IMG/VR virus record: IMGVR_UViG_3300005918_000098 | Span: 1-27,858 of that record | Direction: 5' to 3' (one strand) | From: a virus | DNA: 27,858 bases | In this document: in pieces, positions 657 to 18,739 of the stretch | How positions within the stretch are numbered: the stretch's first letter is position 1 | Layout: every line of letters starts with the position of its first letter | Program-made: the position numbers and the translations under genes | Notes under the pieces: generated by a model | What the model saw: only the letters and a program-made list of their open reading frames with translations | What the model was told of the DNA's origin: nothing | Database searches by the model: none

Positions 657-1850
657 TCAATTGGAAATTATGAGTAAGCAATCCGTTCCTACAGCGTGTG
701 GATAATGTTCCCACGTAAAATTGATGTCTAAGTCTCTGAGCCAACTGGATATTGCAGGAAGATAGTAACTGTTTTCCCAGAAGGTTTTACGCCCAGCCTT
801 TGCTCTAGGCCGAATGAAATCACGCGAAGACTTAGCCGAAGCAAAAAAGCTTACCAAAGACACACTTGAATTGATGTCTAAAACCCGCGACATAAATGGA
901 TTCCAGTGGCTGACGTGTTCAATAACACCGCAGGCGACAACTGCATCATACTTATCTCGCACTATATCTAAATCAGTAGTCAGAAAATCTCCTGTTTCAA
1001 ATGTAGCGTTAGGGGTTTTTGTTACTCGAGCCTGCGGATTTACATCTATTCCGTGGTACTTAGGATAGTTTGGCGCAAGGTGTCCAAGCCCACAACCTAT
1101 TTCATAAACCGATTGTATCTCTCTCTCGCGCAAAATAGCATCTACCCTATCCCATAATGCTGTATGTCGCGCTACCATCGGAACATAAAATTCCTTACTC
1201 TGCCCACGCCAAAAAGTACGTTCTGGCGTAGTCGGCTTCTCGGTTTCATCGTTTAGTTTAGTTCTTGAAATGAGAGCCATCCCACGATTTGTATGCAACA
1301 TTTCGCTGTAAATGTTCAGACGGTCGCAAGATGCTTCGACATTCTTACTGTCTCTCCGGGCGTCATCTAACAGAATTATGCCATCCTGCGCCAGAAACGG
1401 AAGCATAATATCAATAGCCATCATACGAGCTTCCGTGCCCGGGGGACCATCTATAACGATCGTATCAAACTTCCCAACCAGCTCGATTACATCATAAAAA
1501 CCTGTATCCTTATTTATCGTAAATGTTTTGCATTCAACAGGAGTATTTTGGCTGGTCTTAGCCGCAGCCCTTGCCGTTGTAACATATTTTGTAGCTTGCT
1601 CGGTGTACTTAAGCAGATGATCGATTGACAAAACACTGCTAACTTTCGCATTCTTTGCGAGATTCCAGGTACCTTTTCCTGTGCCAGAACCAAACTCCAA
1701 AACTCTTCCGTTTGCGAGCCGATTAAAACATCCTATTGCAGCTGATTCAAACGCTGCCCCACCACTGTCCTTTGGAATACCCTCTATCTTGGGAAGCAGT
1801 TTACGAAGTTCGGCGAGCTTTGCAAAAAACTCTTTATTGGTGTTTACCAT
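657..1850 (-). CDS. Tandem two-domain class I SAM-dependent methyltransferase
   Basis: This 397-residue protein holds two class I (Rossmann-fold) methyltransferase domains. Domain 1 (about residues 5-195) has motif I LEFGSGTGKG at 51-60, the acidic SID that would hold the ribose of SAM at about 75-77, and IVIDGPPGTEAR at 131-142, like the Methyltransf_24 group. Domain 2 (about 220-397) has motif I VYEIGCGLGHL at 248-258, GIDVNP at 267-272 and VACGVIEHV at 305-313, like the Methyltransf_11/23 group that modifies small molecules or sugars. Domain 1 is clearly paralogous to the C-terminal domain of the gene upstream, so a duplication has taken place. GGAG lies eight bases before the ATG, which also overlaps the stop of a methyltransferase remnant as TAATG. 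The substrate is unknown; a sugar on a virion protein is my preferred guess because of the neighbours. Confidence 0.88.
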   Translation of the reverse strand: MVNTNKEFFAKLAELRKLLPKIEGIPKDSGGAAFESAAIGCFNRLANGRVLEFGSGTGKGTWNLAKNAKVSSVLSIDHLLKYTEQATKYVTTARAAAKTSQNTPVECKTFTINKDTGFYDVIELVGKFDTIVIDGPPGTEARMMAIDIMLPFLAQDGIILLDDARRDSKNVEASCDRLNIYSEMLHTNRGMALISRTKLNDETEKPTTPERTFWRGQSKEFYVPMVARHTALWDRVDAILREREIQSVYEIGCGLGHLAPNYPKYHGIDVNPQARVTKTPNATFETGDFLTTDLDIVRDKYDAVVACGVIEHVSHWNPFMSRVLDINSSVSLVSFFASAKSSRDFIRPRAKAGRKTFWENSYYLPAISSWLRDLDINFTWEHYPHAVGTDCLLIISN

Positions 1851-1980
1851 TAAATTCTCTCCTTCGAGGATTCAGTTCCTTTAAGATATCGAACCACATC
1901 GTCTATTAGGATTATACCTCCGATTGCGGGACGAGGCAATAACAAGTCTAGGCCCCTGACCTCCGGTCCTTCTTTCCAGT
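1850..1980 (-). pseudogene. 3' remnant of a further class I methyltransferase
   Basis: Between the two methyltransferase genes, and in a different frame from the upstream gene, an open stretch reads YWKEGPEVRGLDLLLPRP, then GGIILIDDVVRYLKG, and ends in TAA at 1850-1852. This matches the end of motif III and the GGII-IDD strand of class I methyltransferases; the two flanking full domains have APDGIILIDDTKRD and AQDGIILLDDARRD at the equivalent place. There is no start codon with a ribosome site and no motif I, so it cannot be a working enzyme. Its stop overlaps the ATG of the next gene as TAATG, the junction style of intact pairs in this genome, which suggests a whole gene once ended here. The right boundary is approximate because the frame continues open beneath the upstream gene. 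Confidence 0.6.
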
Positions 1981-3696
1981 ACCTCTTTTTATGACACGAA
2001 AGCCACGATTTGTGTCTATAAGTTCCTGAGTTAAGCCTAATCTAATACACGCTTCGTCTATTTGCGCGTAATCTCTCTTTGTGTCATCTATCAGGATTAT
2101 ACCATCTGGAGCTAAATTAGACAGCAATAAATCTATCGCATGTTTTCTAGCTCGTGTGCCGGGAGGGCCGTCTATTAGAATTGTATTGTACAACTCAGTA
2201 TTAATAAAATCTAAGCTGTAGAAACCCGTTGCGCTATTGATTGTGTCTACAACAAACTCAACTTTGTTATCTGGCTCTACAAAATTGATGAATAGATGTG
2301 CGCCGTCTAAGTAGTGTTTGTTATTGTCTACTGAAGTCACGCTAGTAGTGTTAGAACGCATCAGAGCGAGTGTACCTTTCCCACTACCGGTACCAAACTC
2401 TAAAGCGTTTCCAGAGGCTCTAGCGGCAATACACTCGACTGCTTTACTCTCCAAAGTAGCTCCACCATCGTCACTCCTAACCGGTAACAGACCCTCTAAT
2501 TCGGATAATCTGTTGAAGAAATCCTCATCCGTTCTTTTGTTAAGCGACTTGAAGTTCTTTTGATCTTCTCCAGCGAACTCGTCTTCCTGATACAAATCAT
2601 AAGACCATTCTCCTATGAACTTCTCGAACAATTGCTTATACGCTTTATCCGAAAGAATAGTCTTGAAGGTGTGGCGCATATTACATGCGGCTGCGAACTT
2701 CCCATTTGGATTATAAGGTCTTTTATTTCTACTTGGATTACTTTTAGCTTGAAATTCATGCCCAACAATAAGATCGTGAGCCTGAACTATAGCTATTCTT
2801 GACATGAAAGCTCGCCAAGCAAGACCTCTTTCTTGTGAGCCTAGTAGGGAGAGAAAGTTATTCCAGCCACCTACAGCATTCCATGTTTCTCTCGATGCGA
2901 TAGTTGTACAGCTCGGCATCATAACTTGAGTGTCTTTGGTCTTTTCATCTGCAGAAGCTACCTGGTACTGTCCCCACCTACCGATACACGCCCCGTAAGG
3001 CTGTGTAGAAAACTTAGCCTTCCCGGGTACATACGGTTTCCATTCTTCGTCATAATAAATCTTCATCAATAGGGGTGTGTAGATAGCTTTATTTCTTAGG
3101 GCCTTTTGTATGACACGAAGTAAAGCTTCACTTATTACTTCCGTGTGCGCGTCTGTAAAGATGATTACCCTACCAACAGCTTTGCTTAAAAGATATCTCT
3201 TGGCTCTACCACAACCAACTGAGTCTTCGTTGATGAAAACCTTTACATCATCAAGACCTAAGTAACACTCAGCTTCACAACCATCTGCGAGAACAAGTAT
3301 CTCATGTTTTACATCAGCTAAAGCTTTATGGAAAGATTCACAAGTTCTCTTTAGTCTCAAGCCCTCGTCTTTAGAATTGATACATACCGACACAAGAACT
3401 TCTGTGTTATCAGCTGCATGAATCTCTTTCATGTATTCGGCGTAACTCTCATCATCGCCCCATTTGAAGGTCGGACAATGAGGTCTAGCCTTCGATGGAT
3501 CACCACAACCACAGATAGCGCACTTAAGGTGTCCGTTGGTTATAGTTGACTCAGAACAAGCCTCACAGATAGCTCTGTACTTTGATCTAGCAGCCTCAGA
3601 ACGATTTAAGGTTAATCTGCCAGGATAATGCTTTATAACTGTTCCACGCGCCTTGTGTGCCTTTGCTGCTACGAGTATCCTCTCCCTGAGCGTCAT
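1948..3696 (-). CDS. Glycosyltransferase (GT-A, DAH motif) fused to a class I methyltransferase
   Basis: This 582-residue protein has three parts. An N-terminal Cys cluster (Cys44, 47, 59, 62, 64 and 74, with CPTFKWG at 74-80) resembles the small CxxC...CxxCGC...CPxxKW module that precedes many phage glycosyltransferases. A GT-A domain (about 98-320) starts with VLVSVCINSKDEG and has TDAHTE at 181-186 as the metal-binding motif, GGW at 277-279, GSQERGLAWRA at 286-296 and VGHEF at 311-315. The order DAHxE, then a GG-E-xWR segment, then GHxF is like GT27 polypeptide GalNAc-transferases and related GT2 enzymes. The C-terminal methyltransferase (about 390-570) has LEFGTGSGKG at 432-441 and ILIDGPPGTRAR at 506-517. 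The ATG overlaps the preceding stop as TAATG, so the pair is translationally coupled. Fold calls are firm; donor sugar and acceptor are unknown. Confidence 0.87.
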   Translation of the reverse strand: MTLRERILVAAKAHKARGTVIKHYPGRLTLNRSEAARSKYRAICEACSESTITNGHLKCAICGCGDPSKARPHCPTFKWGDDESYAEYMKEIHAADNTEVLVSVCINSKDEGLRLKRTCESFHKALADVKHEILVLADGCEAECYLGLDDVKVFINEDSVGCGRAKRYLLSKAVGRVIIFTDAHTEVISEALLRVIQKALRNKAIYTPLLMKIYYDEEWKPYVPGKAKFSTQPYGACIGRWGQYQVASADEKTKDTQVMMPSCTTIASRETWNAVGGWNNFLSLLGSQERGLAWRAFMSRIAIVQAHDLIVGHEFQAKSNPSRNKRPYNPNGKFAAACNMRHTFKTILSDKAYKQLFEKFIGEWSYDLYQEDEFAGEDQKNFKSLNKRTDEDFFNRLSELEGLLPVRSDDGGATLESKAVECIAARASGNALEFGTGSGKGTLALMRSNTTSVTSVDNNKHYLDGAHLFINFVEPDNKVEFVVDTINSATGFYSLDFINTELYNTILIDGPPGTRARKHAIDLLLSNLAPDGIILIDDTKRDYAQIDEACIRLGLTQELIDTNRGFRVIKRGTGKKDRRSGA

Positions 3697-4121
3697 TATT
3701 TTGTATCCTCCGCCGCCAATTCCAAGTCATCTGCTATCCTATTTGCTTTTTCAGCGCTAAGACCCTTACATACAGCCCTGACCAAAGCATATTGAGCAAA
3801 CTTCTTACCGTTGAGCTTTTCTTCAGGTTCCGCAACCTCATTGTACTGTTCTACAAAACTCTTAGCCTTGCGAATTCTGTCCTTAATAGCTTCTTCATCA
3901 TTAGGGTCCGAGCGTTGAATATTTGCATGAAACGTTGCAGCCCTTTTCAGTAACGCCTTTGGCTTCTCGCTTCCATCACAATCAGGACAGTGTTGAGACT
4001 CTTGTACGGCGAGCGTCGAGTTAATACCTAGAATGCTTTGTAGCTTCTCGCAGCGTATCAGCCCTTCAGGAAACATTGAGGATGTTCCATAATAAAGACA
4101 GTTCTTTTTAGGGTCGAGCAT
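3696..4121 (-). CDS. Hypothetical protein with Cys motif, 141 aa
   Basis: I do not recognise a family. The protein is hydrophilic and charged, with a CPDCDGSEKPK segment near residue 46 that could be half of a zinc site; there are further Cys residues at the N terminus (KKNCLYYG, LIRCEK), and the C-terminal half is helical and acidic. The start was set at ATG 4121, six bases after GGAG; a TTG one codon earlier is less likely. It lies 11 bases downstream of the repeat-bearing tail protein and its stop overlaps the ATG of the glycosyltransferase fusion by one base. It therefore belongs to the same translational unit as a tail protein and a modifying enzyme. A chaperone, adaptor or minor virion role is possible, but nothing in the sequence proves it. 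Confidence 0.75.
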   Translation of the reverse strand: MLDPKKNCLYYGTSSMFPEGLIRCEKLQSILGINSTLAVQESQHCPDCDGSEKPKALLKRAATFHANIQRSDPNDEEAIKDRIRKAKSFVEQYNEVAEPEEKLNGKKFAQYALVRAVCKGLSAEKANRIADDLELAAEDTK

Positions 4122-4132
4122 CAATCTCTCCT

Positions 4133-6064
4133 TTAGTTACACTCGTACAACACACCACAAGCTGTGGCGCCGTCTTCACAGGTATCATACGGCCCACCTG
4201 TAACCTCGTAATAGTCACACGTCCAGACAGGATCCTCTGTGCAGTCACAGGTATCAATTAGAGCATCGAGCCAAGAGTACCCAAGGCTGACGCTGTAGAA
4301 AATCATGTCGAGATAAACAGCTTCACATTCCGGCGTGTCGGGCTCTTCACCGGTATACTGAGTATTTTTGATGCAATACCACTTAGATGGATCTAATCCC
4401 CCACTTGTAGTTGGCGCAGCCGTAGTCGGTGCAAGCGTTGTAGGCGCAAGTGTTGTAGGAGCCAAAGTAGTAGGCGCCAGTGTCGTTGGAGCCAAAGTTG
4501 TCGGCGCAAGTGTTGTTGGCGCTAGAGTAGTAGGAGCTAGAGTTGTCGGAGCCAAAGTTGTCGGCGCAAGTGTTGTTGGCGCTAGAGTAGTAGGAGCTAG
4601 AGTTGTCGGTGCGAGTGTCGTCGGAGCCAGTGTAGTAGGGGCCAAAGTCGTCGGTGCAGCTGTAGTTGGGAAATCACCTGAATCAGATAACACAACAATA
4701 CCATCGCCCGGATAAGTAGTCCCGCTCCACCATTGAATAGAAGAAGAATCATAAATTCGTTCATACAGCGGGTTAGTTGTCTCTGGCGTATACGTGATTG
4801 AGATTTCACCTGAACCATTGATGCGATCATTATCTGAATCAGTTATCTCTTTGTATGCGCTAACAGAAAATGCTGCATTATTTAACTTTAAGCTACCAAC
4901 ATTGTACACAGCATCATTGACAACAAACTTTGTCATGCCAGGAAGATGAATAAAAACATCTTCACCATCATCATATCCAGTTCTTGTGAGCTTAAGAGTC
5001 GATTTACCATCGCCAACTAGAGAAGGTGTGATATCTGTATCATCAAAAATATGCGTATAGCCCATATAGTTCTTGACAGTAGCTCCACCTATGTTACTAC
5101 CTATTGGAGAACCTCTTAAACCAGTGAGCTTGAATTGATATTGTGCTATATCGCCATAGATTTTACTTCCACCTGTTAACTCAACTGGTCCTAATGGATC
5201 TTGTATGAGTGTAACAGAGCCAGCCGCAGTACCATAACGCATAGGATACCTAAAGCCTGTGGTACCTATAGTGGCGCTCATGTAGGTCTTTTCTCTAACC
5301 CATGGAACATAAGCAAAGCCATATTCATCATCAAGTATTGTTTCAGCTGCGACTAGAAAGTGTGTGAGTCCATGATAAGTAGGCTTACAGACCTTGTAAT
5401 AATTGTATGCGCTATATTCCTCGCTTACTTGCACAACGTCACCACGGTTAATTGTGACACCACACTCATTGAAGATTTTGCATACCGTCGGGTCTTGTCC
5501 TACATATCTGACAGCAATTAAACCTGAGTTAGCAACGATACCGGCTGGAGGATCAGGTTGACTCGACGCATTATTGTTATCCAGTACGTAAGGACCACCT
5601 GCTGAGAGCGTTAGATAGGTGTCACTTGCGAGATTAGGGTCAATTCCATACCTGCCCTCAACTGGAGCAGATAATTTATCTCGACATAAAGCCCAGATAG
5701 TACCTAATTGCCTACATGGAACTACATAATTGTATTTAGATGCGCTGTCAAGTAAAACGTAATAGTTCAACAAAGGATCATAAATGTTAAGTGTAGCCGC
5801 TGTACCAATTAGAAGCTGAGAAGTGTATTCTTTTGAATAGACACTTTGACCTTCGACAATAGACCCCCAAGGAAAGTCCGTCGTGTCTGAATAAGCGGCG
5901 CTGAGATAAATGAGTCTCTCATCGTCTTTTGGTTTTATGCTACCTGTATCAATAGGCACATTGCGGAATTTGTCTCTAAAATCATCTACACCCTGAGCCA
6001 TAGAGTTCCATGCCTTGTCAGGGAGTACAGGTAAAGCCTCGCCCGGTTGTATGTTTTGTGTCAT
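4133..6064 (-). CDS. Tail protein with mucin-like Thr/Pro repeat and Cys-rich C terminus
   Basis: The 643-residue protein has three regions. Residues 1 to about 464 are Tyr-, Gly- and Asn-rich with many short beta-type strands, as in phage receptor-binding or baseplate-attached proteins. Residues about 465-551 are a repeat: one TTAAP-type unit, 15 units of TTLAP and another TTAAP-type unit. Residues about 555-643 are a small Cys-rich domain (WYCIKN, CDCTEDPVWTCDYY, GVLYECN) that looks like a secreted-type disulfide or metal knot. The long Pro/Thr stretch should form an extended, rigid stalk and is a good candidate for O-linked sugars. The start overlaps the stop of the upstream tail gene as TAATG. 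Its position directly after the tape measure and distal tail genes supports a tail-tip or fibre role; receptor binding is inference. Confidence 0.8.
   Translation of the reverse strand: MTQNIQPGEALPVLPDKAWNSMAQGVDDFRDKFRNVPIDTGSIKPKDDERLIYLSAAYSDTTDFPWGSIVEGQSVYSKEYTSQLLIGTAATLNIYDPLLNYYVLLDSASKYNYVVPCRQLGTIWALCRDKLSAPVEGRYGIDPNLASDTYLTLSAGGPYVLDNNNASSQPDPPAGIVANSGLIAVRYVGQDPTVCKIFNECGVTINRGDVVQVSEEYSAYNYYKVCKPTYHGLTHFLVAAETILDDEYGFAYVPWVREKTYMSATIGTTGFRYPMRYGTAAGSVTLIQDPLGPVELTGGSKIYGDIAQYQFKLTGLRGSPIGSNIGGATVKNYMGYTHIFDDTDITPSLVGDGKSTLKLTRTGYDDGEDVFIHLPGMTKFVVNDAVYNVGSLKLNNAAFSVSAYKEITDSDNDRINGSGEISITYTPETTNPLYERIYDSSSIQWWSGTTYPGDGIVVLSDSGDFPTTAAPTTLAPTTLAPTTLAPTTLAPTTLAPTTLAPTTLAPTTLAPTTLAPTTLAPTTLAPTTLAPTTLAPTTLAPTTLAPTTAAPTTSGGLDPSKWYCIKNTQYTGEEPDTPECEAVYLDMIFYSVSLGYSWLDALIDTCDCTEDPVWTCDYYEVTGGPYDTCEDGATACGVLYECN
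4412..4675 (-). repeat. 15-bp coding minisatellite (TTLAP units)
   Basis: About 17 consecutive 15-bp units encode Thr-Thr-Leu-Ala-Pro, with Ala replacing Leu in the two outermost units. Most units differ at third codon positions while the protein repeat stays invariant, so the amino-acid sequence is under selection. Bases 4488-4549 and 4548-4609 are identical, a four-unit (60-bp) duplication that must be recent. The stretch is in frame throughout, so unit loss or gain changes stalk length without breaking the gene. Confidence 0.95.
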
Positions 6065-6948
6065 TAGGCGATCCCATCTAAACCTAAACCATCAAAGTCT
6101 GTTTCTCGAAACACTCTGTGCATTTGTACGCCTATCGGAGTTGGCATAACAAATGTTTTACCGCCTATTAAAAGACTCGCCCTACCGTATAGCACGTCCA
6201 TAGCATCCCAACCAACCTTGTCAACAGTTAACGCTCCTACTGAGATACTACTTTCATCACGTTTAACACTAAAATGATAGGTCATTCGATATAAATCAGT
6301 ACCAAAGACCTGGTAAGGTGATCTTTCCTTCTCCGGGGGCCCCAACTCAAGCCCTCTAAAGAGAAGTTCACGTTTTGTATAGGTTACGCCATTCATCACA
6401 ACAGTCGAATCATTTACAGATGGTGTCATATCATCAATTGTGTCTTTGAACGCGGCTGAAGGCTCTGCAGTTTGCCATCGTGTTACATTAATTGATCTTT
6501 CGCTTGAAGGTATATCAAAACCACCTATGGAACCATCAAGTTTAGCTCCAATAACCTTTAGCGTGTCTGAGGGGTAAACGCCTTGATGTGAAACCACCTC
6601 GTAAGATTGCGTAATATGAGCGCTACCAGAAGCAGTTGTAGACTCCTCATAAAGCTCTTTGCCGTTAGTAGGTACCTCGAATGCTGAATAAGAAACCGTG
6701 ACTAGCCAAATACAGGCTGGTTCAGCTCCTATGTCAACGTGTACAGGCTCAACGGTTGGATAGGGCGTCTTGACAACATTTAGTATGATTGGAGCGCTCG
6801 CTGTGTTAATCGTTGCAGGAGCAGCCGTCCACGCCTCATTCATAGCCTCGATAGAATCGTTGGTTCCCCTTACAAGGTATTGAAGCGACCAATCCTTGAA
6901 CCGCGTCCCTGAATCACCATTATATTTTCTCTCAACCGTAACGGCCAT
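6064..6948 (-). CDS. Distal tail / baseplate-type structural protein
   Basis: This 294-residue protein has no signal peptide, membrane segment or catalytic motif. Its sequence is beta-rich, with many short strands. A recognisable feature is the region near residues 220-245 (FGTDLYRMTYHFSVKRDE, then GWDAMDVLYG), followed by a short domain ending in FDGLGLDG. Phage proteins placed just after the tape measure often have this build, with a strand-rich body and a conserved Trp-Asp region near the C terminus. It starts 14 bases after the tape measure stop, with GGAGG ten bases before the ATG, and its stop overlaps the next start as TAATG. By synteny it is a distal tail or baseplate hub component. 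I have not recognised a named family, so the role rests mainly on gene order. Confidence 0.72.
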   Translation of the reverse strand: MAVTVERKYNGDSGTRFKDWSLQYLVRGTNDSIEAMNEAWTAAPATINTASAPIILNVVKTPYPTVEPVHVDIGAEPACIWLVTVSYSAFEVPTNGKELYEESTTASGSAHITQSYEVVSHQGVYPSDTLKVIGAKLDGSIGGFDIPSSERSINVTRWQTAEPSAAFKDTIDDMTPSVNDSTVVMNGVTYTKRELLFRGLELGPPEKERSPYQVFGTDLYRMTYHFSVKRDESSISVGALTVDKVGWDAMDVLYGRASLLIGGKTFVMPTPIGVQMHRVFRETDFDGLGLDGIA

Positions 6949-6962
6949 AAGTCTTATCCCTC

Positions 6963-9900
6963 CTAGCCTACAGCTATTGGATTTCCGTTCTTAATTATGC
7001 GTTCGAGCAAAGAGTTTGATTTACGTGTTTGTCCTACAAGTTCAGCTGTATTCTTCGCCACTGGATCCGCTTTAGAGCCAAAGCCGATAAGCCCGGAAAG
7101 CTTACTTGTCTGCATGACTCTACTCTCAGTCCCAATCTTTTGTTGAGTGAGCTTGTCCAACTTTTTCCTAAGAGCATATTCTTTACCAATAGAGATACGC
7201 TCCTTATTGGACTTAGCATTCTCGAGAGCTTGACGCCTCTGCAAAGCCATCTGAGCCGCTTTAAGTTCATTATCTTTACCGTGATATCGAATCTGCAACC
7301 TCAAGTCTGCAAGTGTATATTCCCTACCACGCTCTTCTCTACGCATAACCTTGTCGAGATTACCCCACTTGATCTTGAATATTTCCTCTACATGCCGTCT
7401 CTCTTCTTCATTGGAGGCTTTACGCATTGCAACTCGTTCCTGGAGCAAGAGGTTTAACCCACGATTTTCACTTGTTTGGTCGCTGTACTCTTCGGCGTCA
7501 ATAGCTTCTTCTCTACCAGCTACTGTGTCAGCGCGTCTACCATCAAGTTCTGCACGTTTAAGTTCATAAAGTCTGTTTAAGTGCTGAATACTTTTGGCGT
7601 CACCACGGGCTTTAAGCAATTCAAGCTCGCGTTGCTTCTGTAATATTTCTTCTTCAATACCAGCCTGAGCTTTAGAATAACCTAATATATCAATGGCGCG
7701 TTGCATAGCTAACTCATCGGCTGTTAGTCGTTGTTGATGCACAGCCTCAGCATGCGTCATGTTCATGCGGTGTAATTCTTCAGCATGCTTCATCTTAATG
7801 GCGCGTAGTTCGGAAAGACGCGCCAGATTGCCTCTAGCATTACGAAGCTCTAATTTATGATCAAACTCTAACTCTTTTCTCTCTTTCGTATGAACATCTT
7901 GAATTGAATCAAGCTTGATACGTGTAATCTCGTCCTGAACTGTAAGCATACGTTTAGCCGATTCAAGAGCAATATTTTTACCAGTGAGAAGTTCTTCAGG
8001 CGTTTTAGCTTGACTAGCTGTGTACTTTTGTTTCCTGTTATATAAATCCTGTGATAGATCATTGACCTGTGATACGCGAGTCTCACGCTTGATGATGTCT
8101 ATTTTCTTCACGTTAGGATCACGCTCTGGATCAACCAAGTCCTTGTCTATTTTCTTTATTTCGGCTTTGGCTTTTGCAATACCTCGCTCTGTCTCTTGTA
8201 TTACATCTAACTGATTGCGTAACTCCGATTCTTTAAGAGCCTTACCAAGATCAGCTGAGATATTAAAGTTACCATTGGTATCAACCAGCATAGCCTTGAT
8301 ATCTTCTAAGGTCTTATCCTGAAATCCAGCTGACATGCGAGTTGCTTCAAACACGTCTGTTGCAAACTTGTTTAGAATGTCACCACCGAAGTCCATGTTT
8401 GCAGATAGACCGTTTAGGCTTGATAACGACTGGAACAATTCAAATGCGCTTGAGTTAGCTTTTGTTACCGCTTCCTCGAACTTCTTGGCTCTAGTGACAA
8501 TCTGCGCACCAAATAAGCCTTCACCAGCTGGTCCAATCTGTCCCATTGTCAAGCCAATAGAGCCTAGTGATTTATTTAACTCATCGGATTTGTCCCTGAA
8601 GTAGCCTAGTTTTGTTCCAATGGCGACAACAGCTTTAGAGATACCATAGGCTACAATCACCATAGCTGCGCCTATTAGAGCAACCTTTAAGGCTAACACA
8701 GCTGTAGCCGCTCCAGCTGTAACTGTTGCTGCGATATACACTTTTAACTTCACTATTGCGTCTACAATATTCTCTTTTATGGTTTGCCAATATAACGGTA
8801 TTGAATTAAGGTGTATGCGCACTAGGTGCAAAGCGCTACCTATTTTGCGTTTTATGGTGTCGCATAACCTGTTAAAACCAAACTTGAGGCTCTTAAAGTC
8901 AACTCTTATGTCTAATAAGCTTGCGAGCTCTTTTTTGATACTATTAAGTCCTGCGCCAAAGTTTGCTACTATTTTCTTAACATTGAAAGCCTTAAACATA
9001 TCGAGTGTTAGCACATTGAGCTTGTTGTCTATGGCACCAAAAAACGATAACATCGTAGCCTTAGACCCTGCAATTAGGCTTGCACGTTTTGCATTTAAAA
9101 GACATATTTTTTTATAGGATGTTTCTATTTGATTTAAATATTTAGACTCAGCAGCTCTCATTTCATTCAAGCGAAAAATAGCCATACGGGCTTGCTTGCT
9201 GTTAGGTCCAAAACGTTCTTTTTGCTGATCCACAAAGGGAACTTGTTGTATGATAGCCCCATTTACGTCTTCAAGATTATCCAATGCTCTATATTTCAGA
9301 GAGTCTTGGCGCTTACCTTTGTAGTCAGTAGCTTTCATATTTTTTGCAAACCTGCTCATATCGGTGAATAGCTTCTTTAATGAAGCACGCGCTCCTGTTA
9401 TTGCGCCAGCCATTAACCTGAATGGTGCAGTTAGCTTCGACGTGCTGTCTATCTTAAATGCCGCTGCCCAAGCAATTTTAAACATACCAGCTGCTTTTAC
9501 TGCGCCATATGAGACACCTGTAAAAACTAAAAGCGCAGTTCCCCACTTCAAGAATTTATCCACAAAGGGCACAGCAATAATAGTTCTACCAATATCGGAT
9601 AGTCTTGTAATCAGTGGAGCTACAGAAGCCAATAATTCTTTCAGGCTACGATTCAATGTTGAAAATAACAACGCTATAGAGTCGTTCATTGTTTCGATAG
9701 ACTCTGTGCCACCACGGAACGCTGAGGTTGCTTCTATCTCCTTAAGATACTTTCTAAGCCCCGCTCCGCCTTCACGCAGCATAGGTAGTAATGTTAAGCC
9801 TATACGCTCACCAAACAGCGCAGAGGCTACTCCAGCCTCTTCTGTGCCATCTGATAGGTTAACCCACGCGTCAGATATAGTTAGAAGCTTTTCATCTACA

Positions 9901-10313
9901 CTTTTACCAATAAGAGCATCATAAGATAAATTAAGCGCATCAAAAGCCTTCTGGTTCTGTGCTATACCAGTGGAGGAAGACGAGAACATTGTTTGTAGCT
10001 TGAATAATGCTTTGGTTAGACCTGCTGTAGATATAGCAAATAAGCCAGCTGTTTGCCTTAAAGCATCAAGTCTAGTAGCTGTCAGATTTAAGGCTTTTGA
10101 AGATTTACCAAGATCATCAAGAGAGGATGCAAAGTTCTTGACCTGTTTGATCAGGAAAGCACTAAACGCTACCTTGATAATAGAGCCTAAAGACACAAAA
10201 CTCTTCTTAAGCTTACCAACATCTTTATGTATTGATGCTGATGCTTTAGAAAAGTTGCTCTTGTCTAATACTACAGCAACTCTAGCTCTGGCAACTTCAG
10301 CTGTGTTAGCCAT
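6963..10313 (-). CDS. Tail tape measure protein
   Basis: At 1116 residues this is the longest gene in the window, directly after the tail assembly chaperone genes, the classic site of the tape measure protein that sets siphovirus tail length. The N terminus has the usual helical VVLDKSNFSKASASIHKDVGKL segment. Hydrophobic stretches lie near residues 250-275 (GTALLVFTGVSYGAV) and about 530-575 (Ala/Val/Ile-rich, ALKVALIGAAMVIVAYGI), as expected for a protein that enters the host membrane with the DNA. The last 450 residues are long charged helices, probably coiled coil. An AAAGG site lies nine bases before the ATG, and the start overlaps the end of the frameshift product by eight bases. No lysozyme or peptidase domain was seen. 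Confidence 0.92.
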   Translation of the reverse strand: MANTAEVARARVAVVLDKSNFSKASASIHKDVGKLKKSFVSLGSIIKVAFSAFLIKQVKNFASSLDDLGKSSKALNLTATRLDALRQTAGLFAISTAGLTKALFKLQTMFSSSSTGIAQNQKAFDALNLSYDALIGKSVDEKLLTISDAWVNLSDGTEEAGVASALFGERIGLTLLPMLREGGAGLRKYLKEIEATSAFRGGTESIETMNDSIALLFSTLNRSLKELLASVAPLITRLSDIGRTIIAVPFVDKFLKWGTALLVFTGVSYGAVKAAGMFKIAWAAAFKIDSTSKLTAPFRLMAGAITGARASLKKLFTDMSRFAKNMKATDYKGKRQDSLKYRALDNLEDVNGAIIQQVPFVDQQKERFGPNSKQARMAIFRLNEMRAAESKYLNQIETSYKKICLLNAKRASLIAGSKATMLSFFGAIDNKLNVLTLDMFKAFNVKKIVANFGAGLNSIKKELASLLDIRVDFKSLKFGFNRLCDTIKRKIGSALHLVRIHLNSIPLYWQTIKENIVDAIVKLKVYIAATVTAGAATAVLALKVALIGAAMVIVAYGISKAVVAIGTKLGYFRDKSDELNKSLGSIGLTMGQIGPAGEGLFGAQIVTRAKKFEEAVTKANSSAFELFQSLSSLNGLSANMDFGGDILNKFATDVFEATRMSAGFQDKTLEDIKAMLVDTNGNFNISADLGKALKESELRNQLDVIQETERGIAKAKAEIKKIDKDLVDPERDPNVKKIDIIKRETRVSQVNDLSQDLYNRKQKYTASQAKTPEELLTGKNIALESAKRMLTVQDEITRIKLDSIQDVHTKERKELEFDHKLELRNARGNLARLSELRAIKMKHAEELHRMNMTHAEAVHQQRLTADELAMQRAIDILGYSKAQAGIEEEILQKQRELELLKARGDAKSIQHLNRLYELKRAELDGRRADTVAGREEAIDAEEYSDQTSENRGLNLLLQERVAMRKASNEEERRHVEEIFKIKWGNLDKVMRREERGREYTLADLRLQIRYHGKDNELKAAQMALQRRQALENAKSNKERISIGKEYALRKKLDKLTQQKIGTESRVMQTSKLSGLIGFGSKADPVAKNTAELVGQTRKSNSLLERIIKNGNPIAVG

Positions 10314-10674
10314 CTTTAGATACCTTTATAACTTCGCGTTTAAAACCTGATTGATTACGAAAGCCGTGTAGAATAAACTTATCGGCTGTTGAGTCTTTGT
10401 CTTGTTCAACTTCATCTTTATCTTCGTTATAAAACGGATTAAACTGTTGTGCAGTGACAAGACTTGATTCTTCTGTGGCATTGACATTGATTATAAGCGC
10501 AACAAGCTCCGAGTGTCGCTGCATAGTGGTACTCATCTTTGCTTCCCACATATAATATAGCTCTGCAAAGGTAAATTGGTCTGGGTTTATTCCGATGATT
10601 CCGGCTGCTGTGTAAACAAAGTCCCAATAGAGTCCTCTACCTGTTTTGCTACGTCTTCGTCGCTTATCTTTTCC
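10306..10674 (-). CDS. C-terminal part of tail assembly chaperone, probably made by -1 frameshift
   Basis: In the -1 frame relative to the chaperone gene an open stretch runs across its end and continues to a stop at 10306. It reads LYWDFVYTAAGIIGINPDQF, then TFAELYYMWEAKM. This Gly-Ile-(Asn/Asp)-Pro-Asp-x-Phe-Thr...Glu-Leu...Met pattern is typical of the second half of lambda G/GT-like chaperones that load tape measure protein. There is no good start codon or ribosome site before this conserved part; the first ATG in the frame would remove it. The heptamer G GAA AAG at 10668-10674 is in the correct phase to let a ribosome slip back one base. The left boundary is certain; the exact slip site is inferred. 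The shifted product would be about 250 residues. Confidence 0.68.
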   Translation of the reverse strand, partial: GKDKRRRRSKTGRGLYWDFVYTAAGIIGINPDQFTFAELYYMWEAKMSTTMQRHSELVALIINVNATEESSLVTAQQFNPFYNEDKDEVEQDKDSTADKFILHGFRNQSGFKREVIKVSKDG

Positions 10675-11063
10675 ACTTCTTTGTCCAGAGCTATGAGAGT
10701 CGTCTTTACCATGAACTGCACCTTCTTGAGCGACTTCGCCTTCGCTATGTCCCCCTTCTTCTGGAAAAAATTTACTAGTTCATCCGTTAGGGCGTTGTAC
10801 CCTCCAGCGATTGTGTCGCCGTCTACAGCATCCAAGAAAGCTTCATAGGATACGTCTTTCTTATCTGCTTGTGGTTTAATCAAGTGATACAGTATATCAG
10901 CTAATTCACATGGATCATCCTGAAGTGAAAGCAAAAGTGGGGTTTCCTGAGCATCATCTGTGTAGAGTAGATCAATATCAATATTAGTCTTGACTCGCTT
11001 AATGGATCCAATATTAAGGGCTATAATCCACTCGTTGTTGTTTCCATCTTTGAAACTAGCCAT
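10587..11063 (-). CDS. Tail assembly chaperone (G-like, zero-frame product)
   Basis: This 158-residue acidic protein sits between the major tail protein and the tape measure, where lambda gpG-like tail assembly chaperones are found. It has a short beta-rich N terminus (DGNNNEWIIALNIGSIKRV), then helices, and an acidic C terminus ending in QQPESSE. The start was set at ATG 11063, eight bases after GGAG; the longer open frame upstream lies across the palindrome/terminator region and lacks a ribosome site. The conserved continuation lies in the -1 frame, so two products are expected in a fixed ratio, the shorter one abundant. A near-copy of the repeated palindrome (11090-11111) lies 27 bases upstream and may control this gene and the tape measure behind it. 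Confidence 0.8.
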   Translation of the reverse strand: MASFKDGNNNEWIIALNIGSIKRVKTNIDIDLLYTDDAQETPLLLSLQDDPCELADILYHLIKPQADKKDVSYEAFLDAVDGDTIAGGYNALTDELVNFFQKKGDIAKAKSLKKVQFMVKTTLIALDKEVEKISDEDVAKQVEDSIGTLFTQQPESSE

Positions 11064-11089
11064 AATTCTCTCTCCTTTTGTACGGTACA

Positions 11090-11111
11090 ATTCAGTAATG
11101 TGTCACTGAAA
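11090..11111. promoter_or_regulatory. Degenerate copy of the 22-bp palindromic operator-like site
   Basis: The half-sites read ATTCAGTAATG and TGTCACTGAAA; each matches the consensus TTTCAGTAACG / CGTTACTGAAA at 9 of 11 positions. The site lies between the major tail protein terminator and the ribosome site of the tail chaperone gene, and its right end touches the T-tract of that terminator. Confidence 0.6.
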
Positions 11112-11141
11112 TAAAGCCCTACTCTCCATGGCGAGTAGAGC
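11109..11141 (-). terminator. Rho-independent terminator after major tail protein
   Basis: Read on the minus strand, GCTCTACTC and GAGTAGGGC form a nine-pair stem (one G-U) around an eight-base loop, followed by TTTATTTC. It begins 28 bases after the major tail protein stop. The T-tract is short and interrupted, so read-through into the tape measure genes is likely. Confidence 0.6.
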
Positions 11142-11168
11142 CAAGAATCTGCCATGGCAGTGAATCAT

Positions 11169-11621
11169 CTAGCTGGCTACAACTTCAACCCACGTAACTG
11201 TACCAGACGGTTTTACGGTGATATCGTAAGTGATAGCCTCTTCGCTTCCTTCGTTACGGGTTAGTGAGAATACGGAACCTGTAAACTTCGGACCTTCAGA
11301 GTCGCTTGTGTCCTTATCGCCTGTTAGGGCGCAGAACTCCATAAGATCATCACCAAGGAAGTTGTCACGCATAGCATCAGCAACAACATTGGCTCCAGCG
11401 TTGAGCTGAACCTTAAACGTAAGCTCAAGAACACGGGTACTCTTTGCTGTAGCTACCCAACCGTCATTATCACGAGTTGTGATATCAACTTCATTAGCTG
11501 AGAGGCTAAGGGATACTTCCTTAACATTGGCGGCTTCTAGAAGATCAGCAAGTACATCTTCACAATCACCATAATACAACTTTGCGTTCATGCCTAACTT
11601 ATAGTTAGTTGTGCAAGCCAT
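11169..11621 (-). CDS. Major tail (tube) protein
   Basis: At 150 residues with a strand-rich sequence, this fits small siphovirus tail tube proteins. Supporting segments are the N-terminal MACTTNYKLGMNAKLYYG, the central EVSLSLSANEVDITTRDNDGW, which resembles the conserved VDLSLSxDEVDVTTR-type core of phage major tail proteins, and the C-terminal ITVKPSGTVTWVEV. The start at 11621 has AAGGA seven bases upstream; an upstream in-frame start would add only six residues and has no ribosome site. It has its own promoter (11661-11690) and a terminator behind it, as expected for one of the most abundant virion proteins. It lies between the tail terminator-like gene and the chaperone, the standard siphovirus position. 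Confidence 0.85.
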   Translation of the reverse strand: MACTTNYKLGMNAKLYYGDCEDVLADLLEAANVKEVSLSLSANEVDITTRDNDGWVATAKSTRVLELTFKVQLNAGANVVADAMRDNFLGDDLMEFCALTGDKDTSDSEGPKFTGSVFSLTRNEGSEEAITYDITVKPSGTVTWVEVVAS

Positions 11622-11660
11622 AATGATTTCCTTTCTCAAGAAAAGTAATTTACTACTTCG

Positions 11661-11690
11661 ATTATACGTTAAATGAACTACGTTTTACAA
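11661..11690 (-). promoter_or_regulatory. Sigma-70-type promoter for major tail protein
   Basis: On the minus strand TTGTAA (11685-11690) and TATAAT (11661-11666) are 18 bases apart, in the intergenic gap before the major tail protein. The -10 is perfect and the -35 matches four of six positions. Confidence 0.55.
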
Positions 11691-11720
11691 CAGCTATTGT
11701 CTATCGCATAATCCCTCCAC

Positions 11721-12125
11721 TTATTCTGCCCAATGAATCAAGGCAACTTGAGCGCTCATCGGATAGCTATCAGGGTCCATAGTTGTCAAGATACCTGATA
11801 CCAAGATACCAGCGTCCTTGAGTACATAGGCTATACGATATGTTAAGTCTCTAATACTCTTCATTGACGCATGTTTAGAGCCAATCACACGTACTCTAAG
11901 CTGCTGTTCGATTCCAAGGTTGCCTCTAGTCGAGTTATCAGAGCTTGAAATGTACCCAATCAGTATAGCTGGGAAGATTTTAGGTATGTCTTCATCAACT
12001 GGTAGTGTTTCTCGACCAAAGATAGCTGGAGCATTACCATTACCGAAATCATAGACACCTAATTGGTCTGTGATTAAGGCGCTCGCTGATAAAGTTTCAA
12101 TTATACACGTCATTGGACTAGCCAT
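11721..12125 (-). CDS. Tail completion / tail terminator-like protein
   Basis: This 134-residue protein follows the gp10-like gene and precedes the major tail protein, the slot of tail terminator or tail-to-head joining proteins (lambda gpU or DUF3168-like). The sequence fits that build: an N-terminal helix (IIETLSASALITDQLG), a strand pattern with IFPAILIGYISSSDNST and EQQLRVRVIGSK, a long helix (SMKSIRDLTYRIAYVLKDAG) and a final strand (SAQVALIHWAE). No catalytic or membrane signature was seen. Its start overlaps the upstream stop by eight bases. Sequence similarity to a named family is only suggestive, so the call relies partly on gene order. Confidence 0.68.
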   Translation of the reverse strand: MASPMTCIIETLSASALITDQLGVYDFGNGNAPAIFGRETLPVDEDIPKIFPAILIGYISSSDNSTRGNLGIEQQLRVRVIGSKHASMKSIRDLTYRIAYVLKDAGILVSGILTTMDPDSYPMSAQVALIHWAE

Positions 12126-12408
12126 TGTTTATCCTATCTATCGCAATATCAACAGCAGGTGTTAGGAATGGTTGTGGCGGCATCTTTCGAGTACCAAGTT
12201 CAACAAATAGTGCGTAATCAGCTGTAGCTTCAACACCATCTACCGTAGCTTCAATAGATTCTCTTAAATAGCCTGTATCTACTGGACAAAGAACTTTGGC
12301 TACTCTAACTGTTTCATCTTTAAGCTTCTTCATCGTGATTTTACTTACGTTTTCAACTAAGCCAGCTAACGCAGAGTTATTAAATGTCACAACTACATTC
12401 TTACCCAT
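12118..12408 (-). CDS. HK97 gp10-like head-tail joining protein
   Basis: The 96-residue protein shows the HK97-gp10_like pattern: an N-terminal basic helix ending in CPVDTGYLRESI, then a strand and YALFVELGTRKMPPQPFL near residues 66-83, followed by a C-terminal helix. The PVDTGxLRxSI and YAxxVExGTxxMxxxPF motifs are diagnostic of this family, which helps join heads to tails or complete the tail. The start shares one base with the upstream stop (12408) and the end overlaps the next gene by eight bases, so the connector genes are tightly coupled. Confidence 0.88.
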   Translation of the reverse strand: MGKNVVVTFNNSALAGLVENVSKITMKKLKDETVRVAKVLCPVDTGYLRESIEATVDGVEATADYALFVELGTRKMPPQPFLTPAVDIAIDRINNG

Positions 12409-12674
12409 TAATCCATACCCCTTTCAGCTGACCAAATAGTGTATCTAGCTCTGGGGCTTGAGAGTCTTTCAATAATAATATACCGTTCATCATCAGGCAT
12501 AACAACAACATCGCCTCTAATACACGCTATGCTTGATCTAAAGGATATTTGAATAACGTTTTGGTGAATTGATAGTGCGCCTTGTGCAAAAGATAAGTGT
12601 GCATACTCTCTGGTAATATCACCTTCACCATCCGGGCTCTTTACAAGTCTCAAGATTTCAATTTGGGAAAACAT
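12408..12674 (-). CDS. Head closure / head-tail adaptor protein
   Basis: The start at 12674 (MFSQIEILRL) comes directly after the TAA of the preceding gene, with AGGA ten bases upstream; an earlier in-frame start would overlap that gene needlessly. The 88-residue product is beta-rich, with GDITREYAHL, IACIRGDVVVMPDDERYIIIERL and ARYTIWSAERG. This resembles phage head closure proteins (SPP1 gp16 or Phage_H_T_join type), which are small beta-barrel rings that plug the connector after packaging. No enzymatic motif is visible. The place between the gp6-like connector and the gp10-like protein is exactly where this family occurs. Confidence 0.75.
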   Translation of the reverse strand: MFSQIEILRLVKSPDGEGDITREYAHLSFAQGALSIHQNVIQISFRSSIACIRGDVVVMPDDERYIIIERLSSPRARYTIWSAERGMD

Positions 12675-12675
12675 G

Positions 12676-13182
12676 TTATACCGTTCCTGTATTGTATTGA
12701 TTAACAAGGCTCATGATATCTGAGGCATAAAACTCAGGCCACGTTTGAGAGACACCGCCGGCCGAAATGTTATTAGCGCCTCTCGCGTCATAGAGTCTTG
12801 AAACAAGCATTGCAGTTGCATGATCGAGGTCTTCAGGAATCTCAGAATAGAAAGGTGTGTAAATAACGGTATAGATACCCGGCGTCCAGCTCCCGCTCGG
12901 CCTGAAAACAGCGTAAGACATCGGAGGAATAATGTAAGCCGATGAAGAAACAGCGGTCGTTGTTCCTAAACGAGTGATTGATGTGATTGTTTTGATGGGT
13001 CCCGTAGGTAGATTAAGGAAATGAGCGTACCCAAAGGATTGAGCCATCACCGTAATCTCTGTAGAACCAACAGATACACCAGCCAGGTCGAGTATATGAA
13101 TCTTGGCTGATTCGTAAAGCTTACGGGCGGTTTCAGAATCAACTCCACCACCAAGGAATGATAATAGTTGTTCAATCTTCAT
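12676..13182 (-). CDS. Head-tail connector protein (gp6-like)
   Basis: This 168-residue protein starts with helices (MKIEQLLSFLGGGVDSETARKLYESA) followed by strands including ITVMAQSFGYAHFLNLPTGP and ITSITRLG. After these come GIYTVIYTPF and a C-terminal helix (DLDHATAMLVSRLYDAR). The pattern (helix, then LP-x-GP-x-x-x-I-x-S-I, then Y-x-x-GY/F with a helical tail) is shared by gp6-like connector proteins that form a ring under the portal. Its ATG overlaps the portal stop as TAATG, so it is coupled to portal synthesis. Length is typical for the family when the long C-terminal helix is included. Confidence 0.8.
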   Translation of the reverse strand: MKIEQLLSFLGGGVDSETARKLYESAKIHILDLAGVSVGSTEITVMAQSFGYAHFLNLPTGPIKTITSITRLGTTTAVSSSAYIIPPMSYAVFRPSGSWTPGIYTVIYTPFYSEIPEDLDHATAMLVSRLYDARGANNISAGGVSQTWPEFYASDIMSLVNQYNTGTV

Positions 13183-14267: not shown

Positions 14268-14289
14268 GATTGTTAATCTCCACGGCCTC

Positions 14290-16482
14290 TCACTCGTTCG
14301 CCTTAGTTTTCCACGAGTTCATACCATCAAAAGCTCGTCGGACAACACCTGGCAAAGGGACCTTTACCTCTTCAACAATACAGTCATAATAGTCGCCAAG
14401 TTGACCATTCCAATCGAGCCACGCTTTCATACGATCTAAGCGTTTCTGATCTCTTCCATCCCTTCGATTGTAGAATTCAAACTTAGCAAGCATAATCTCT
14501 TTTGGTAAACAATGTCCGAGATGCCACACACATGTATCGTAACACGGTTTGGCTCTTTTAAGAAGTGTAATTGAAGGGTTCTGAACATTTTCAGGAGGAA
14601 CCGGCGTTGGATGACTCTTGAATCGATAGCTATATCTCCAGTTGGATGCGCGATAATGAGTGAAGATAGAGCCTATCGGATACTTAGGAAGTTTTTCGCC
14701 CCAACGCGTATCCCCAGGCTGTCCATACGCCCAATGTTTATCATCATGCCAGAAGCCTACGATACGAATTCTCGATGTGTTGTTAGGGCTATCAATAACA
14801 TGCTTGATACCTGTCCAGATCTCATCACCATCAAGAATCAGCTGAAAGTTACCATCCATGCGATCAACAAGATATTGACGCATTTGTCTCTTGTCGCCCC
14901 AAAGAGACTTCTCATAGATTTTAATCTTGTTGTCCGGATCAGGTAAGCTCCTAAGATCTTCAAGAGTTCCATCTTCCTTCCAACCAGCCTTAATAGCGTC
15001 ACCTACAGGACCGTAAGCGATAAGAATCTCATCGACGTAAGGATAGACTGATTCGATAGCGTAACGCGGTAGACCTGAAGCGGAATATGCGATCATGTGG
15101 GCGCTAACGCGTTTCTTGTTAATGGCTAGATAGGGAAGGTTCTCAATACGCGCAGGCATGTTGTATAACGAATACTTTTCACGAACTCTCTTTTGTGTTT
15201 CTCGAGGAACCTCAATTGTCTTATTTACAATCTCCATCGTTTTGCTTATGAATGCTTTCTCATCCCGAATAGGAACAAAGTTAATGTCCTTGCCATAATT
15301 AGAGACGAGAACAGGGATGTCATAAGCCACGACTGGCGTCCCCAATGAAAGAGCCTCAGAAGGTACCATGCCGTAGCCTTCGAAGGTCGTAGGATAAAGC
15401 ACAGCCGCCGCGTGGCGCATATAAACAAGCTTGGATACTTCATCGGCGCCAGTCATATAGATGATTTTGTTCTTACCTGAGATAACCTCTTTACCGCTGT
15501 GAGAAGAGAATACAACCAGGTCAAGATTACGATGATACTTCTCGGCGCATTCACGAACCAGACGTTCGCAGAGCCCCAGGTTCTTTGACTTGGTTTTGCG
15601 GGCAGAGGCAACAAGGTATGGATATTCAGGATGTGGGTTTGTTGAAAGTAACGCCCTATCAACCGCCATTGAATTGACAGCCGGATGTAGCGCAGCCCAC
15701 TTATTAATGTTTGGAAAAGCTTTCTTAGCGAATGACGCCCCTACCTTATCCTCCAGAGTTACCATGAGATTCGGTTGAAGCGTCTTACCAAAATCATCCT
15801 GATCACGATGCGCCTTGGAAAGTTCAGGATCTGTCTGTGCAATGAAATCGGATACCTCGAAGGAGAAAGAGATATAACGAGCATTAACCTTCTTGGCAAA
15901 AGCCTGGGCTTGTTCAACCATCGTTGAGTTGGTAGATCCACCTATAACAATGTCGATGTCTTTAGGGAGTTTCTTGATACTGTTGACATAAATAGGTTCA
16001 AAGCCCGGGAAATCCTTCTCCCAAACAGGTTTTTGATCCACACAGAGATAAACGATAGCCCCAAGACGGCGAAGAGACCAGAGAATATGATAAAAGTAGA
16101 TTCGACCCCCGGAATAGAAATTACGCATCCATGTAATCAAAGCAATCTTGGGTGGGTCCCTCTCGATAAGATGACCACCAAGCGCATCGCGTTCCTGATT
16201 AAATCCTATGAGTTGTGGATTTGATTTCTCTAAAGCATCCATCTTTGAGAACGTGTGCATTTCAGGTTGTGGTTTAACATACACAACGTTTGGGCTACGA
16301 GGACGAACACATATAGATCCAGAGGTGTTAGGGATCATCTCGATAGCTTCACGAGAGAGTAGCTGTCTAACTTTTCCTCTGTTTGGAAGCGTAACAATAT
16401 CTCCTATGGACGCGCCGGCGTATCCAACGATATCTTCGAACAGTGGAAGCTTCTGCAAAATCCGGTACTTATCAGTTCTCAT
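14290..16482 (-). CDS. Two-domain glycosyltransferase (GT4-type plus GT-A-type)
   Basis: The 730-residue protein has an N-terminal unassigned section (1 to about 110). A GT-B domain of GT4 type (about 112-440) follows, with IALITWMRNFYSGGRIYFYH as its opening and the donor-binding EX7E motif at Glu368 and Glu376 within FEGYGMVPSEALSLGTPVVA. The C-terminal domain (about 460-690) has a GT-A-like look: YVDEILIAYG, LILDGDEIW with a DxD at 551-553, and WHLGH, which may bind metal. The start at ATG 16482 was chosen because the longer frame begins inside the terminator; AGGAGAGGG lies upstream of this ATG. It sits between capsid and portal, separated from the capsid by a terminator. The target is unknown; a virion protein or host surface glycan are both possible. 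Confidence 0.88.
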   Translation of the reverse strand: MRTDKYRILQKLPLFEDIVGYAGASIGDIVTLPNRGKVRQLLSREAIEMIPNTSGSICVRPRSPNVVYVKPQPEMHTFSKMDALEKSNPQLIGFNQERDALGGHLIERDPPKIALITWMRNFYSGGRIYFYHILWSLRRLGAIVYLCVDQKPVWEKDFPGFEPIYVNSIKKLPKDIDIVIGGSTNSTMVEQAQAFAKKVNARYISFSFEVSDFIAQTDPELSKAHRDQDDFGKTLQPNLMVTLEDKVGASFAKKAFPNINKWAALHPAVNSMAVDRALLSTNPHPEYPYLVASARKTKSKNLGLCERLVRECAEKYHRNLDLVVFSSHSGKEVISGKNKIIYMTGADEVSKLVYMRHAAAVLYPTTFEGYGMVPSEALSLGTPVVAYDIPVLVSNYGKDINFVPIRDEKAFISKTMEIVNKTIEVPRETQKRVREKYSLYNMPARIENLPYLAINKKRVSAHMIAYSASGLPRYAIESVYPYVDEILIAYGPVGDAIKAGWKEDGTLEDLRSLPDPDNKIKIYEKSLWGDKRQMRQYLVDRMDGNFQLILDGDEIWTGIKHVIDSPNNTSRIRIVGFWHDDKHWAYGQPGDTRWGEKLPKYPIGSIFTHYRASNWRYSYRFKSHPTPVPPENVQNPSITLLKRAKPCYDTCVWHLGHCLPKEIMLAKFEFYNRRDGRDQKRLDRMKAWLDWNGQLGDYYDCIVEEVKVPLPGVVRRAFDGMNSWKTKANE

Positions 16483-16524
16483 GGCTGCGTATCCCTCTCC
16501 TTGAATATTAAGCGTGTGTTGGGT

Positions 16525-16569
16525 TAAAAACAATCAGGGAGGCGAGGCTCCTTACACCTCAGCCTCCCT
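16525..16569 (-). terminator. Rho-independent terminator after major capsid gene
   Basis: On the minus strand GGGAGGC-A-GAGG-type halves (16557-16568 and 16537-16547) form an 11-pair stem with one bulged base and a nine-base loop, and TTTTT follows six bases after the stem at 16530-16526. It would cut capsid transcription off from the glycosyltransferase and portal genes. Confidence 0.8.
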
Positions 16570-16588
16570 TGACTGTTAGTTGAGATCA

Positions 16589-16610
16589 TTTCAGTAACGC
16601 GTTACTGAAA
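16589..16610. promoter_or_regulatory. Perfect 22-bp palindrome, operator-like
   Basis: TTTCAGTAACG is followed directly by its exact reverse complement, with no spacer. It lies 14 bases after the capsid stop codon and just before the terminator. Three other junctions in the window carry recognisable copies. Palindromes of this kind are typical binding sites for dimeric repressors. Confidence 0.8.
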
Positions 16611-16623
16611 CGGTAGAAATCGC

Positions 16624-17970: not shown

Positions 17971-17981
17971 ATCAATTCTCC

Positions 17982-18644: not shown

Positions 18645-18690
18645 AATCGTGCTCTTGCCTCCAAGTGTAGATTCTTTGCTTCTTAATATA

Positions 18691-18719
18691 GGTATAAACT
18701 GAAACACGCACTGTGTCAA
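18691..18719 (-). promoter_or_regulatory. Sigma-70 promoter for protease-capsid unit
   Basis: On the minus strand a perfect TTGACA (18714-18719) is followed after exactly 17 bases by TATACC (18691-18696). It lies between the terminase stop at 18740 and the protease ATG at 18644, giving a leader of about 40 bases. Confidence 0.65.
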
Positions 18720-18739
18720 GTTGTTAAGTCTTAACTTTA

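Follow-up and report, generated by a model that had tools for sequence, protein, structure and literature searches.

Polypeptide N-acetylgalactosamine (GalNAc) transferases, the GT27 family of glycosyltransferases, are usually thought of as eukaryotic enzymes, and bacterial GT2 enzymes such as WrtF, TarP and TarS act on polysaccharide or teichoic acid. Phage-encoded glycosylation of virions has been described for the mycobacteriophages Che8, Rita and their relatives; the sugars there are attached to the capsid and tail-tube subunits at their C-termini (Freeman et al. 2023, as cited in PMC12619734 and PMC11256854). In a survey of glycosyltransferases with the GT-A fold, the DxH motif in place of DxD was found to be confined to GT27 and GT60, both of which are polypeptide Ser/Thr O-glycosyltransferases, and in GT27 a C-terminal His also binds the metal (PMC7185993). 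Here we analyze a linear record of a tailed virus from IMG/VR (IMGVR_UViG_3300005918_000098, positions 1 to 27,858; this entire stretch of 27,858 bases is referred to as the window), which encodes a DxH-type glycosyltransferase fused to a methyltransferase, close to a 643-residue protein that carries a tandem array of TTLAP units. The best explanation of this locus, to which we assign a probability of roughly 0.58, is that it represents a self-contained, phage-encoded cassette for mucin-type O-glycosylation of the virion. A literature search on TTLAP or phage GT27 enzymes found no report of mucin-type glycosylation in phages.

All the genes named here are on the minus strand, in the order terminase, protease, capsid, a glycosyltransferase gene, portal, head-tail, major tail, tape measure and a tail-module gene encoding 294 amino acids, followed by the gene for the repeat protein, an open reading frame (ORF) of 142 codons, the glycosyltransferase-methyltransferase fusion gene and a gene with two methyltransferase domains (Table 1). 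Given that the same record carries terminase, portal, capsid and tape measure, the glycosyltransferase is phage-encoded. The repeat gene overlaps the gene upstream of it at a TAATG sequence, the same overlap joins the 142-residue ORF to the fusion gene, and upstream of the 142-residue ORF there is an AGGAG of the ribosome-binding type; the gene with two methyltransferase domains starts 97 bp beyond the fusion gene and has an AGGAG of its own. The chain is thus translationally coupled, in line with an initial annotation made from the sequence, which placed the putative substrate and the enzymes in one translational unit. The order given in that annotation is to be corrected in that transcription reaches the repeat gene first and the enzyme gene after it, with one small ORF in between. 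Scans of the window for promoters and terminators yielded hits at chance level.

The repeat protein contains exactly 15 TTLAP units, the number given originally, flanked by TTAAP units, and this Thr/Pro array lies near the C-terminus, where it is followed by a Cys-rich tail. Pairwise comparison of the 15 units at the DNA level revealed 44 differences in codon position 1, none in position 2 and 354 in position 3; because the changes in position 1 all interconvert the Leu codons TTG and CTN, all of the differences are synonymous. From this we conclude that the array is conserved at the protein level, with the peptide under selection, and judging from its codons, it is neither a chance occurrence nor a freshly slipped repeat; its DNA includes a higher-order duplication of 60 bp. 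The designation of this protein as a tail protein is based on its position after the tape measure gene and not on the protein itself, for which Pfam returned no match above the cut-off and PHROG none at all.

The fusion protein matches Glycos_transf_2 (PF00535) over residues 103-223 (E 5e-8). The motifs that originally pointed to polypeptide GalNAc-transferases, namely DAHxE, a block leading from GG to E and WR, and GHxF, are all present, as DAHTE at residue 182, GGWN at 276, QERG at 288, WRAF at 294 and GHEF at 312, and the predicted methyltransferase on the same polypeptide is recognized as a member of the Methyltransf_24 family. As in GT27, a DxH motif and the candidate metal-binding His of GHxF are combined in a GT-A fold in the absence of the xED aspartate, and the presumed acceptor is a mucin-like Thr/Pro array. 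The DxH motif is shared with GT60 as well, the acceptor of which is protein Ser/Thr (PMC7185993), but the Pfam scan of the window protein showed no family of the GT60 type.

The AlphaFold2 model of the glycosyltransferase domain was generated from an 11-row alignment of viral enzymes, both DxH and DxD, with identities of 13-20%, and therefore leans on these enzymes; it reached a predicted local distance difference test (pLDDT) score of 65 and a predicted template modelling (pTM) score of 0.68, with residues 116-168 and 217-251 poorly modelled. The GT-A fold of the domain is backed by hundreds of GT-A structural matches, and in the Foldseek search, GalNAc-T2 ranked first (E 6.6e-8) and GT27 chains made up most of the top 30. 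The domain scored 13.5 bits with a combined profile of viral DxH enzymes versus 1.8 bits with a DxD GT2 profile, a contrast that we grade as weak support given that 1 of the 16 DxD enzymes also exceeded 13.5 bits on the DxH profile. The comparison of the single window sequence with the two viral profiles using hhalign was uninformative; a phmmer search of the PDB produced nothing convincing, with phosphoglycerate kinase ranked above GalNAc-T10 (E 0.63, not significant); and a DNA pattern for DAHxE...GHxFR had 10 matches in viral contigs, none of them in a glycosyltransferase. Overall, we consider a GT27-like identity of the window enzyme plausible on the grounds of its motifs and model.

Other phages provide the stronger part of the evidence. 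A DNA pattern for four TTxAP units retrieved 46 stretches in 45 viral records, which were compared with 150 control records, namely holders of an arbitrary 14-base word, holders of an arbitrary 16-base word and terminase relatives, 50 each. PF00535 was detected in 19 of the 45 TTxAP records versus 5 of the 150 controls (0/50, 1/50 and 4/50; Fisher p 4e-10), and among the records below 60 kb, in 14/39 versus 2/139 (p 6e-9). The records are mostly fragments and include near-duplicates (G008/G022/G024 and G017/G039), the counts ignore phylogeny, and the controls may by chance be without tail modules, for which the terminase-matched set is a partial remedy. The distance between the GT2-type genes and the repeats is often a few kb, and a DxH-type enzyme (DSH, DPH, DCH or DAH) is encoded in 14 of the 20 GT2-bearing records, the window counted. 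Methyltransf_23 was found in 10/45 TTxAP records versus 2/50 controls and often adjoins a DSH gene. Thus, the survey of co-occurrence across genomes proposed at the outset yielded a strong enrichment of GT2-type genes, in contradiction to an absence of co-occurrence.

These counts bear on the alternative that the cassette glycosylates another virion protein, for example, the capsid or major tail protein, and that the TTLAP array next door serves simply as a linker, flexible or rod-like. The phage glycans known so far are carried by capsid and tail-tube subunits at their C-termini (Freeman et al. 2023, as cited in PMC12619734), and a second glycosyltransferase gene of the window lies between the portal and capsid genes. 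Nevertheless, the density of GT2-bearing records below 60 kb, 16.6 per Mb in the TTxAP set versus 0.8 per Mb in the controls, an approximately twentyfold excess, links the enzymes specifically to the arrays, and we regard this alternative as unlikely, if worth keeping in mind.

GtrB-type GT2 enzymes of phages modify host surface or lipid-linked sugars, so the window enzymes might likewise act on host glycans rather than on the virion, resulting in superinfection exclusion or a receptor change. GtrB is indeed among the fold matches of the window domain, and DxD-type GT2 genes are present in some TTxAP phages as well. Yet reading the fusion sequence by eye reveals no hydrophobic membrane segment like that of GtrB, the gene is embedded in a coupled tail operon, and the DxH motif is reported to be confined to polypeptide transferases (PMC7185993), which makes this possibility somewhat less credible again. 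A firm grouping with glycosyltransferases acting on lipids or DNA, which would speak against the original proposal, was not seen in the structure comparisons.

Two other viral DxH families, denoted DSH and DAHC after their motifs, look like polypeptide GalNAc-transferases. An alignment of the DSH family (A2) recovered 42 viral loci, 32 of which had not been preselected for repeats. Within the fetched stretches, [ST]TxxP arrays were present in 8 of these 32 loci versus 0 of the 170 control loci (p 1.8e-7); in whole records, three tandem TTxxP units were found in 9/32 versus 0/50. A looser measure of Ser/Thr richness (13 of 30 residues) was discarded because it did not discriminate, with 43 of the 170 control loci passing. 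In six records (L080, L091, L101, L105, L115 and L116), the array is 0.2-7 kb from the enzyme, within or beside structural-looking genes. Methyltransferase genes are located about 1 kb or less from the DSH gene in several records, and in L080, an epimerase and a methyltransferase are encoded beside the enzyme. The structural model of the DSH family (25 rows, pLDDT 85, pTM 0.87) matched polypeptide GalNAc-transferases at ranks 1-29 over its whole length (residues 1-322, Z 22.9-24.7), ahead of chondroitin polymerase as the first non-GT27 match (Z 19.1), and Foldseek agreed. The sequence profile (A3), which retrieved chondroitin synthase, TarS and TarP followed by GalNAc-T9 and T10, is less telling than the structure. 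On the strength of this model, the family comprising L080 and its relatives is assigned a GT27-like fold. Apart from these arrays, tracts of some 30 residues that consist almost purely of Thr were observed in proteins of DSH-carrying records without TTxxP arrays (L109:13993-14739 and L118:5296-7776). A fusion of B12-binding, radical SAM and GT2 domains (L105:4046-6061) is encoded near a DSH-type enzyme, upstream of a TTxAP protein.

The profile of the DAHC enzymes matched human GalNAc-T4 with an E of 4.7e-14 over 264 residues, the first 14 matches all belonged to GT27, and hhalign links the profile to the DSH family (96%). By comparison, the matches of the DxD control profile were polysaccharide enzymes such as chondroitin synthase, and none at E <= 0.001 belonged to GT27. 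By their sequence profile, the DAHC enzymes are accordingly classified as homologous to the catalytic domain of GT27, and the GT27 kinship of both viral families is clearer than that of the window enzyme. The DAHC genes come from G168, where L358 (G168:C1:1-20000), positions 1336-16845, holds three DAHC enzymes, an SDR-like gene and a 602-residue SPSxS-rich protein, the long SPSxS array of which is encoded about 7-14 kb from the DAHC genes on the same strand. This record is a cleaner test case than the window.

Thr/Pro arrays and glycosyltransferases could also be functionally unlinked accessory genes that gather in the same variable regions. Many of the matches come from few phage lineages, and TTxxP arrays were not found in 23 of the 42 DSH-family records, many of them fragments. 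However, the association spans several kinds of DxH enzymes (DSH, DPH/DCH, DAHC and the DAH of the window), usually on the same strand and within a few kb, and G168, the only control record with DxH enzymes, turned out to encode a Ser/Pro-rich protein, so that we find this explanation improbable. Modification of phage DNA bases, for which phage glycosyltransferases are known (cited in PMC12619734), is very improbable considering the position in the tail operon, the Methyltransf_24/12 families of the methyltransferases and the fact that family scans of the window recognized no base-hypermodification gene.

Several observations weigh against the proposed mucin-type cassette. The region of the window model that holds H313 has a pLDDT below 50. 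VIA-align scored the WrtF fucosyltransferase and the Leptospira enzyme 6p61 (both 17.4) on a par with GalNAc-T2 (17.0), so that the structural match of the window enzyme to GT27 is not decisive; the similarity to bacterial GT2 enzymes, including TarP and TarS, extends to the fold and these scores. Unlike GT27 enzymes, the window enzyme is viral and shares its polypeptide with a Cys motif and a methyltransferase; a ricin-type lectin domain was not found in the Pfam scan of the fusion, with the methyltransferase domain occupying the C-terminal side, and for that reason, we do not file the enzyme as a member of GT27. A homologue search detected no close relatives of it in viral or genome contigs, and tblastn against phages and plasmids gave only chance-level matches. 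At E <= 1e-3, none of the proteins of the window showed kinship with the loci that bear repeats or with those of the DSH family, which makes this virus a separate case, and the evidence from other phages therefore works by analogy, which helps the argument from convergence but weakens the direct inference for the window; a tblastn match of the 294-residue tail-module protein to DSH enzymes (E 0.006) was judged to be due to chance. Finally, a PF00535 gene was not detected in more than half of the TTxAP records, many of which are fragments.

That phages combine GT27-like enzymes with Thr/Ser/Pro arrays has stronger support than the claim for the window enzyme. For the broader proposition that tailed phages of several lineages use GT27-like enzymes to start glycans on their own Thr/Pro or Ser/Pro stalks, which neighbouring phage genes extend and cap with methyl groups, we see about even odds.

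Under the cassette hypothesis, the DxH-type GT-A enzyme, with its metal held by D182, H184 and probably H313, would use a nucleotide-sugar to attach the first sugar to Thr in the TTLAP stalk. The modification would follow soon after the stalk has been synthesized from the coupled transcript that both genes share. Extension of the sugar could be the task of the GT4 gene located between portal and capsid, and capping that of the methyltransferase domains. In this way, a stiff stalk, resistant to proteases and similar to mucin, would connect the tail-module domain with the small Cys-rich domain at the C-terminus. We infer the action of the enzyme on the stalk, the identity of the sugar, the order of the steps and the methylation of the glycan from the gene content and the comparisons described above. 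The parallel with the mycobacteriophages consists in phage-encoded glycosyltransferases, which there decorate virion proteins and here are proposed to do so, but the acceptor proposed for the window is a tandem Thr/Pro array rather than subunit C-termini. If correct, the hypothesis would place mucin-initiating chemistry, a GT27-like enzyme together with a tandem Thr/Pro array, in phages, raise the question of the origin of GT27, account for the TTxAP arrays of environmental phages and offer small soluble enzymes for making mucin-like glycoproteins in bacteria. The enzyme and the array are directly testable together in E. coli.

Table 1. Features of the proposed glycosylation locus and related genes in the window
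Feature	Position	Strand	Basis or remark
643-residue tail-module protein, proposed substrate	4133..6064	-	Translation; follows tape measure and 294-residue tail-module gene
15 TTLAP units, residues 472-546	4427..4651	-	Identical peptide units
142-residue ORF, four N-terminal Cys	3696..4124	-	Coupled to glycosyltransferase gene; start probably ATG at 4121
582-residue fusion: Cys motif, GT-A glycosyltransferase, methyltransferase	1948..3696	-	Pfam, translation
N-terminal CxxC...CxxC...CPxxKW motif of fusion	3460..3567	-	phrog_13558, E 0.022, positions 29-68 of 69
GT-A glycosyltransferase domain, residues 98-320	2737..3405	-	Pfam PF00535, AlphaFold2, Foldseek
DAHTE, DxH-type metal motif, residues 182-186	3139..3153	-	Sequence motif
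GHEF, candidate C-terminal metal-binding His, residues 312-315	2752..2763	-	Sequence motif; role of C-terminal His in GT27 per PMC7185993
Methyltransf_24 of fusion, residues 432-539	2080..2403	-	Pfam, E 1.2e-8
Two-methyltransferase gene	657..1850	-	Pfam: Methyltransf_24 at 51-163, Methyltransf_12/23/25 at ~250-323
Second glycosyltransferase gene, 747 residues, between portal and capsid genes	14290..16533	-	GT4: PF13692/PF00534

The two additional methyltransferases expected in the gene after the fusion were both recovered, and the first of these domains is 43% identical to the methyltransferase of the fusion protein. The C-terminal half of the 747-residue protein, which contains an LDGDE motif, has no Pfam match but aligns with a protein from another locus, L275 (24%, E 1.3e-9). 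The latter, a 934-residue protein with three GT2 domains, is encoded after the capsid gene of L275.

The 142-residue ORF had no match in the Pfam and PHROG family scans. From its sequence, the N-terminal Cys motif of the fusion protein appears to be a divergent relative of the phrog_13558 or DUF6171-type small Cys proteins. Stand-alone DUF6171-like/phrog_13558 proteins ending in CPxGKW, which are better members of this family than the window motif, are encoded downstream of TTxAP genes, at a distance of about 0.3-0.5 kb, in four records (L022:3584-3850, L029:531-821, L031:8381-8608 and L033:6821-7087), and in L352, the same Cys motif is fused to another GT2.

The large terminase subunit (window:18740-20029, minus strand) is closest to those of the archaeal (methanogen) viruses psiM2 and psiM100 (44%). 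The capsid and portal resemble those of bacterial phages, and the tape measure resembles proteins of Idiomarinaceae, Microcystis and Synechococcus phages; because the terminase disagrees with these three proteins, we assign no host. An 8.1-kb record (L266, IMGVR_UViG_3300023246_000122), which ends short of the repeat gene, is 99.8% identical to positions 12613-20439 of the window and is the same virus in a second assembly.

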